Positions 44,735 to 46,100 of a stretch of 64,000 nt of DNA are shown in pieces. Origin of the DNA: an uncultured bacterium (GTDB lineage: Bacteria > Elusimicrobiota > Elusimicrobia > Elusimicrobiales > Elusimicrobiaceae); NCBI GenBank assembly GCA_949291515.1, contig CASEVY010000010.1:1-64000 (forward strand), given 5' to 3'. The notes beneath the pieces are model-generated. The model was not told where the DNA came from and made no database searches. It saw only the letters and a list, made by a program, of their open reading frames with translations. The position numbers were made by a program, and so were the translations under genes. Each line of letters opens with the position of its first letter. Position 1 is the first letter of the stretch.

Positions 44735-45807
44735 TTATTCTTCGGGCAAACCGCGCAGTGAAATTTCCCTCAAAGGAAAAAATATCCCGTAAAAGAAAAT
44801 CAGCGGATTGATTATAATGCGGGCAAAGCGCGGCATAAAGTAAAGATTATGTTTTAACGCGAATTTGAACAAAGCGAATTTTACTTTAAAGATAATATTC
44901 CTTTCTTTAAACAGATCCGGCGGCAAGTTTAAATAAAAATCTTTGCATTTGCCGAACAATCTTTTTATTTGCTCTTTATTGGACTGTTTTAAAGCGCCGT
45001 TGCCTATACATTCGCCGCCTATTATTTGTTTTAAAAGGATATATTCAAATTCTTCTTGTACTTCGGGATATATTTTGGACTTCTTCAGCGTTTCCCTTAT
45101 ATGGGAATAATTTTCGAAATTCGCGTTTGCGGAATCGCGCTTGCCTGTTTTCCCCAAAGAACCGACCGTATCCCTAAATTTGACGAGAGTTTCTTTTAAG
45201 AAAACAAATTTGTTTGCGCAAGAAAACAAAGCGCCCATAAAAGGGACGTCTTCGCTTCCCCGCCCTTCGGGGAAACGCAAATTGTTGTCTTCTATAAGGC
45301 TTCTTTTTATAAGGCTGCCCCACGGTCTGCCTATTATGCCAGCGCCCACATATAAAAGCTGCGAACGGGAGTTCGGCGGAACGATTAGTAATGAAGCATT
45401 TCTTTTGAGGAAAAAGCTCCGATCGGCTCCCCTGTTTCTTTAAAATAAATATAGGAGCAGGTTGCTATATCGGCTTTTTTCTCTTCCGCTTTTTTAAAAA
45501 GGATTTCGCAGGCGGTTTTTTCCAAGATATCGTCGCTGTCAAAGAACAAAACATATTTGCCTTTCGCGTGTTTAAGGCCCTCGTTTCTGGCGCCGCCCGC
45601 CATTCCGCCCTCTTTGTAAAGATAATGGAAGTTGGGATATTTGCGCGCAAATTCCTTTATTATTTCGGGCGAGCCGTCTTTGGAGGCATTGTCCACGCAC
45701 AAAACTTCAATATTCTTAAATGTTTGTTCCGCGGCAGATTGCAGGGCTTGGCGCAGGAACTTCTCTGAATTGTATACGGGTATGATTACGCTTATTTCAA
45801 CAGACAT
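44735..45807 (-). pseudogene. Family 2 glycosyltransferase split by a frameshift
   Basis: Two minus-strand frames together make one glycosyltransferase. The first half (45385-45807, start MSVEISVIIPVYNSEKFLRQ) has the GT2 nucleotide-binding fold with VDNASKDGS and the DXD motif in FFDSDDILEK, and stops at TAA 45385. The second half (44735 to about 45395, annotatable from GTG 45349) has the continuation GIIGRPWGSLIKRSLIEDNN and EGRGSEDVPFMGALF. The frames differ by one missing base (or two extra) near 45385-45400. Either the gene is decayed, a slippage or phase switch exists, or the assembly has an error. The ATG is preceded by GGAGAAGAA, which lies in a hairpin. Confidence 0.8.
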
Positions 45808-46077
45808 TTCTTCTCCGGAGTTTTGGGAGAAGAATACTTTTTGCAGACAAAAAACGGCCGTATGTATTTTATGGCGAATCACCCTCATAAAATAAAACAG
45901 CCGTAGCTGGCTTTCCGTAAGAAAGCCAGCATTAACGCGAAATAATCGGGTTAATTACTCCCTTTTATTTCGCGTTTAGAACGACTGCTTTTGGGGTGAT
46001 TCGTCTTTTGATTGCAAAAGAGTTCCTTTCGGATCCCAAAAACAGATAAATTTTTACCGGCCTTTAATTCAAGGCCG
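45808..46077 (-). promoter_or_regulatory. Riboswitch-like structured leader before the glycosyltransferase
   Basis: Between the phosphorylase and glycosyltransferase genes six perfect stems are found: 46058-46064/46071-46077 (7 bp), 46004-46010/46015-46021 (7 bp), 45989-45995/46035-46041 (7 bp), 45934-45945/45965-45976 (12 bp), 45906-45915/45921-45930 (10 bp) and 45875-45884/45994-46003 (10 bp). The last one would enclose the 12- and 10-bp hairpins as a three-way junction, but it shares bases 45994-45995 with the third, so the two exclude each other. A further 9-bp hairpin (45808-45816/45826-45834) buries the Shine-Dalgarno GGAG of the downstream gene right up to its ATG. No known riboswitch class was recognised. 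Confidence 0.6.
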
Positions 46078-46100
46078 TACTGCTTAGTTCAATTCTCCTT

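Follow-up and report, generated by a model that had tools for sequence, protein, structure and literature searches.

The window, the whole 64,000-nt stretch of DNA analysed here (positions 1-64,000 of contig CASEVY010000010.1, assembly GCA_949291515.1, Elusimicrobiaceae, Elusimicrobiota), carries on its minus strand, between glgP and a gene for a family-2-type glycosyltransferase, a series of inverted repeats that an earlier note on this DNA had described as a set of stems. All of these stems are present (Table 1); that of P4 is 88% complementary across 17 nt, and the segments paired in P1 belong to a helix of 11 nt that contains one mismatch. The minus strand has a folding energy of -114.9 kcal/mol, as compared with -67.1 +/- 5.2 kcal/mol for dinucleotide-shuffled sequences (z = -9.2, 0 of 100 shuffles as low). 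The plus strand also folds well (z = -8.8), as expected from inverted repeats, and the RNA was hence assigned to the minus strand on the basis of its conservation, its U-tract and the orientation of downstream genes. Its sequence contains a P1 domain with two hairpins, the hairpins P4 and P5 and a terminator with a U-tract (P6/P7, 45849-45905, minus strand). A pseudoknot of about 10 bp joins the P1 domain to the loop of the terminator, the P4 loop is self-complementary, and a gene on the same strand lies directly 3' of the element. Hairpin P0 is a helix of the element itself and adjoins the AAGGAG site. An AU-rich stretch lies between P0 and the P1 5' strand, and in the window copy the joining segments are UCGUU between the P1 3' strand and P4 and AAUG between P4 and P5. 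The glycosyltransferase gene is frameshifted near codon 140 in the window and intact, at 357 aa, in two close relatives.

Table 1. Positions of the RNA element, its parts and the adjoining gene in the window
Feature	Positions	Strand	Paired segments	Basis
Whole RNA element, P0 to terminator U-tract	45849..46077	-		R1 match with P0 added
Shine-Dalgarno-like AAGGAG	46095..46100	-		Sequence; such a site in a subset of copies only
TTG-AAC-TAA after AAGGAG, possible mini-ORF	46084-46092	-
Hairpin P0	46058..46077	-	46058-46067/46068-46077	Perfect stem; P0-region folding in Elusimicrobiaceae
P1, 5' strand (CUGUUUUUGGG)	46035..46045	-	45989-45995/46035-46041
Hairpin P2	46024..46034	-		6/6 modelled pairs vary on both sides; 97% of cells paired
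Hairpin P3	46004..46022	-	46004-46010/46015-46021	Stem and covariation alignment
Pseudoknot strand 1 (CGAAUCACCC)	45994..46003	-	45875-45884/45994-46003
P1, 3' strand (CCCAAAAGCAG)	45985..45995	-	as P1, 5' strand
Extension (GCAGUCGUU); with P1 3' strand can pair P6 5' arm (antiterminator)	45980..45988	-
Hairpin P4	45934..45976	-	45934-45950/45960-45976	14/14 modelled pairs vary on both sides
P4 loop AGUAAUUAA, palindrome UAAUUA, proposed kissing loop	45951..45959	-
Hairpin P5	45906..45930	-	45906-45915/45921-45930	9/9 modelled pairs vary on both sides
P6, 5' arm (UACGGCUGUUUU), terminator 5' arm or antiterminator partner	45894..45905	-
P7, upper part of terminator hairpin	45865..45894	-	45865-45873/45886-45894
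Pseudoknot strand 2 (GGGUGAUUCG), inside P7 loop	45875..45884	-	as pseudoknot strand 1
P6, 3' arm and U-tract (ACGGCCGUUUUUU), terminator	45849..45861	-		Sequence; pairing conserved
9-bp hairpin over glycosyltransferase Shine-Dalgarno, local, outside the family	45808..45834	-	45808-45816/45826-45834
Family-2-type glycosyltransferase (ATG 45807-45805)	44735..45807	-		Family by similarity to L122 GT2

Distribution and covariation of the RNA

Diverged copies of the element were found in the same genus and family by blastn against 60 relatives. A covariance model (R1), built from an alignment of ten copies and comprising 218 positions and 57 pairs, gives a full-length match in the window at 45850-46056 with 168.8 bits, the window copy having belonged to the training set. 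With a limiting E-value of 1e-6, the RNA was detected in 80 of 90 Elusimicrobiaceae genomes; R1 E-values are rough because calibration was shortened, copy counts from the large scans are to be read as "at least", and nearly all genomes are metagenome assemblies. Copy number is uneven, with one to five copies in most Elusimicrobiaceae genomes (three in the window's genome) and about 50 in some, among them G008, with 54 R1 matches, and G014, with about 50 full-length matches (the list at E <= 0.01 has 55 entries, including a few antisense shadows). Elsewhere in a 295-genome sample of the phylum the RNA was found only in family f15, with up to 25 matches per genome among those listed, plus one weak match in another family, and it was almost absent from the roughly 190 other sampled genomes. 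The assignment of f15 to the class Endomicrobiia rests on one f15 genome, whose match coordinates are those of the record for Candidatus Ruminimicrobiellum caprinum, a member of that class. A pattern scan of 84,980 GTDB species returned 86 stretches, listed as 80 loci, 79 of which were confirmed by R1 (91 matches) in records named Elusimicrobiota or "uncultured bacterium". A SAR86 record (L222) harbors the search pattern without confirmation by the covariance model and was treated as a chance occurrence. No matches were found in viral contigs, phages or plasmids.

The earlier note had recognised no known class, and the Rfam searches bear this out, with no match to the element at gathering or relaxed thresholds. 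In the window only two tRNAs reach the Rfam 15 gathering thresholds, neither over the element, where the best sub-threshold match has E = 0.059. At 16 loci with other copies there were five Rfam matches at E <= 1, none of them on the RNA model match; one, a weak match in L266, lies immediately upstream of it. No paper linking Elusimicrobiota to such an RNA was found in the open-access literature, most subscription journals lying outside its coverage. Judged against Rfam 15 and this literature, the RNA, of about 210 nt, is a previously uncatalogued family, and the stretch in the window is one member of a large family and no one-off.

Covariation was assessed on the 91 copies from the GTDB scan (90 distinct sequences). 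Standard pairs occupy 90.1% of pair cells among the distinct sequences, versus 73.2% when shuffled, 53 of 68 pairs vary on both sides, and every helix covaries. The covariation score is 0.491, versus 0.201 for shuffled and at most 0.147 for slid alignments, with none of 500 shuffles as high; Endomicrobiia copies alone score 0.362, versus 0.150. The compensatory changes that the earlier note had proposed looking for in relatives are therefore abundant, and their excess over shuffled and slid controls indicates a structured RNA under selection. Since the covariation alignments were fitted to the structure of the model, the pseudoknot and the palindromes were tested in an alignment-free manner.

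The region of P0 folds at -6.9 kcal/mol in Elusimicrobiaceae copies, versus -3.3 kcal/mol when shuffled. The possibility that P0 is merely the terminator of glgP was discarded, as a hairpin recurs there at many copies whatever gene lies upstream. Upstream of the RNA, -10-like boxes are present in 101 of 142 Elusimicrobiaceae copies, versus 58 and at most 67 in shuffles. A start-stop mini-ORF (ATGTAA or ATGTAG) follows a strong Shine-Dalgarno in 15 of 145 Elusimicrobiaceae copies, versus 0.7 in shuffles, and either precedes or opens P0, 18-28 nt before P1 in L103, L105, L107, L117, L118, L127 and others; its counterpart in the window is AAGGAG-AA-TTGAACTAA. Given this frequency, and with none seen by eye in Endomicrobiia, the mini-ORF was rejected as a general feature and is regarded as a subset trait. 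Short variants with a reduced P4 or P5 also occur (L138, L140, L141, L142), in which P1, the pseudoknot and P6 are kept where testable.

Competing strands and the P4 loop

The earlier note had proposed a structured leader with two alternative folds, in which the stem 45875-45884/45994-46003 would exclude 45989-45995/46035-46041. The structured leader and the two folds stand, but the competing stems differ from those named. Both of the latter are kept in nearly all relatives and coexist, the first being the pseudoknot onto the loop of the terminator hairpin, which in the window overlaps P1 by 1-2 nt. Its roughly 10 bp are conserved, yet its sequence differs in nearly every copy. In the alignment-free test, strands score a mean of 24.0 against their own partner versus 13.8 against swapped ones, with 74 of 78 copies above the 95th percentile.

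The strands that compete are the P1 3' strand with its extension (P1b, consensus AAAACAGUCGU) and the P6 5' arm (P6a, ACGGCUGUUUU), between which at least 8 pairs are kept in 72 of 78 copies. For the 114 copies that deviate from the consensus, a copy's own P1b and P6a pair better than in all of 2000 permutations. When P1b position 7 is U, P6a has A in 8 of 11 copies, versus 0 of 160 when it is C, counts that are uncorrected for shared ancestry. Pairing with P6 is open to extension position 10 in 163 of 173 copies and to position 11 in 162, though both are unpaired in the terminated fold. Sequence conservation of the antiterminator strands leaves little covariation there, inherited changes enter the counts repeatedly, and part of the P1b/P6a match arises because P1a and P6a share the word CUGUU. 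In a folding model that omits pseudoknots and co-transcriptional kinetics, the antiterminator pairs with a mean probability of 0.62 as long as the P6 3' arm is missing and of 0.12 in the complete RNA, in which P1 and P6 reach 0.82 and 0.86; the window copy behaves alike. Since the complementarity, the co-changes and the folds of truncated and full transcripts agree, the element likely works as a transcription attenuator. The expression platform, which the earlier note had placed in the hairpin over the Shine-Dalgarno, hence appears to be this terminator and antiterminator. Between P4 and P5, ARUG is found in 142 of 173 copies, and UCGUUNUA recurs before P4.

The loop of P4 contains a palindrome of at least 4 nt in 155 of 173 copies (mean 67 and at most 82 after shuffling) and one of 6 nt in 109 of 173 (mean 10 and at most 18), and the same shuffle test reveals no palindrome excess in the loops of P2, P3 and P5. 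At least ten different palindromes occur, including the six-base UAAUUA, UCAUGA, UUAUAA, UUCGAA, UUGCAA, UCUAGA, CUCGAG, CACGUG and UAGCUA and the four-base GAUC, AGCU and GGCC. Because the loop is self-complementary in so many copies through so many different palindromes, dimers formed by kissing P4 loops, as predicted from the loop sequences, are the simplest reading. One group of copies, several of them before TPR genes, carries GACG in place of the palindrome, a loop for which kissing dimers are described in Moloney viruses (PMC7357161). In L127, L128, L134, L135 and related copies the palindromic loop is replaced by AGUA-NCC-GACG-GGN-GAAAGU, which resembles a bulged-G (loop E) motif capped by a GACG tetraloop.

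Downstream genes and probable segment exchange

In 55 of 61 copies the nearest open reading frame downstream shares the strand of the RNA, usually at a distance of about 100 nt or less, and the genes upstream are unrelated to one another and occur on both strands. A pilin N-terminus is encoded after 77 of 137 Elusimicrobiaceae copies, 23 of 46 copies in G014 and 8 of 26 in Endomicrobiia. Other downstream genes encode GT2, GT1/4, GT8, GT9, LicD, pyruvyl transferases, SNase and TPR proteins, or restriction systems (EcoRI-type, type III, type IIG, McrB-like). As annotated from sequence, most downstream genes belong to the type IV pilins, the glycosyltransferases or the restriction/defence genes. 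Some copies have no recognisable gene after them. The gene downstream of L120 (478-3957) encodes a PLD/SNF2-helicase protein with relatives among the defence proteins of the DISARM and BREX types. PF07963 pilin-like matches are numerous for such small genomes (108 in G014, 82 in G018 and 59 in G033). About a fifth of those in G014 carry the RNA and no RNA was detected in G018 or G033, so the association between RNA and pilins is an enrichment and not a necessity.

At the glgP locus, glgP adjoins trmL in many relatives, and G017 presents the order glgP-RNA-trmL, without a glycosyltransferase. In G001 and G011 the glycosyltransferase is intact and stands behind another leader. In the close relatives L231 and L232 a different leader of about 165 bp replaces the RNA in the gap between glgP and the glycosyltransferase, with a strong hairpin and a U-run (e.g. 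ACGUGAAACAA...UUGUUUCACGU-CGAUUUUU), and may represent a second leader family. At the EF-Tu locus, the RNA-pilin segment of G011 differs wholly from the corresponding segments of G001 and the window's genome, between flanks that are about 96-99% identical, a pattern suggesting that segments were exchanged and not transposed. Positions 148-1863 of the window, after the end of EF-Tu, differ entirely from G001 and G011 between flanks about 93-99% identical; to judge by this comparison, the stretch is an exchange hot spot.

Interpretation and relation to known systems

With moderate confidence, we interpret the RNA as a new family of cis-acting leaders that would act as transcription attenuators of surface and restriction/defence genes and contact one another through their P4 loops. 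During transcription, the P1 3' strand and the next four bases would first pair with the P6 5' arm, and this putative antiterminator would, together with P4 and P5, enclose a three-way junction, the joining bases of which are conserved. If nothing holds this state, the terminator would form, P1 would close and the pseudoknot would lock the OFF state. The P4 loops would allow two leaders to pair through a kissing interaction, and the ON state could be held by a ligand, by a protein or by RNA-RNA contact between leaders. A dedicated NusG paralogue was discarded as the antiterminator, each genome having at most one NusG match, with or without the RNA. An extension of the scheme, in which dozens of leaders, each "barcoded" by its pseudoknot, kiss via a few palindromes, sense each other's transcripts in trans and so set which surface and defence genes are on, is speculative and in our estimate improbable.

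A metabolite riboswitch, in which a small molecule stabilises the antiterminator by binding to the conserved joining bases of the junction, would be a special case of attenuation. The terminator/antiterminator platform, the ARUG segment and the motif before P4 suit it, but the downstream genes share no common pathway and strictly conserved unpaired bases are few for a 210-nt aptamer; the conserved three-way junction need not be a binding site, and we consider a riboswitch doubtful. Cyclic di-GMP was rejected as the ligand and has no special support, GGDEF proteins occurring equally in genomes with and without the RNA. The sugar metabolites that the earlier note had in mind gain none either, since pilins and other surface or restriction/defence genes make up most of the downstream set. 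A stand-alone small RNA acting in trans or architecturally, with its own promoter and terminator and forming kissing homo-oligomers, would merely share a cassette with the downstream genes. The -10-like boxes, the strong terminator at the 3' end, the palindromic loop and the exchange of whole cassettes at the EF-Tu locus agree with such an RNA, as does its persistence in G017 in the absence of the glycosyltransferase, which a pure cis-regulator would not need and which, with the copies that lack a recognisable downstream gene, counts against attenuation. The same-strand orientation of the next gene and the coherence of downstream gene types across two classes speak against it, and the antiterminator complementarity would be purposeless; we regard this alternative as unlikely.

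The two other explanations that the earlier note had entertained fare far worse. Its 9-bp hairpin exists, is perfectly paired and covers the Shine-Dalgarno up to the ATG, and would suit an RNA thermometer or translational switch, but it was seen at the window copy only, lies outside the conserved element and precedes a gene that is frameshifted in the window, which makes a thermometer very improbable. A mobile palindromic repeat (MITE, REP or IS-derived) would account for the dispersal of many copies in some genomes. Within one genome, however, the copies are highly diverged yet keep their pairing, and they stand in a fixed orientation to the gene that follows. At the EF-Tu locus, the only one compared, strains differ in the entire intergenic segment instead of in a small insertion with ends of its own, and viral, phage and plasmid sequences yielded no matches; such an origin is hardly credible.

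The attenuator reading would add to gut Elusimicrobiota a common, uncatalogued RNA family, expanded to about 50 copies in some small genomes, and would place type IV pilins, surface glycosylation and restriction/defence genes under a single control by RNA. Genes of these kinds are reminiscent of those subject to phase variation in other bacteria, and the RNA may thus offer a way to vary the surface. Through its varied palindromic loops, the family would provide a rare example, in nature, of bacterial leader RNAs that dimerise. Transcription-attenuating riboswitches and T-box leaders share with the new RNA a long structured leader, an antiterminator alternative and a strand common to an aptamer-like helix and the terminator. 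Unlike them, the new RNA has no known ligand or tRNA and no Rfam match, locks its terminator loop to the leader through a pseudoknot of about 10 bp, and reaches about 50 copies per 1.4-Mb genome before surface and restriction genes. It is also much larger than the HMP-PP (thiS) riboswitch. In that riboswitch the terminator is likewise part of the folded sensing domain, a terminator-embedded aptamer with a known ligand that serves thiamin genes (PMC6478431, in part). GOLLD, ROOL and OLE are bacterial structured RNAs that form homo-oligomers, as is only predicted for the new RNA, but they are large, whereas it is about 210 nt long, multi-copy and gene-linked, with no Rfam relation found (PMC12286853, in part). 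The closest likeness of its P4 loop is to the six-nucleotide palindromic apical loop of the HIV-1 DIS and, in a subset of copies, to the Moloney GACG tetraloop; those loops dimerise retroviral genomes, whereas here at least ten palindromes occur in bacterial leaders (PMC7357161).
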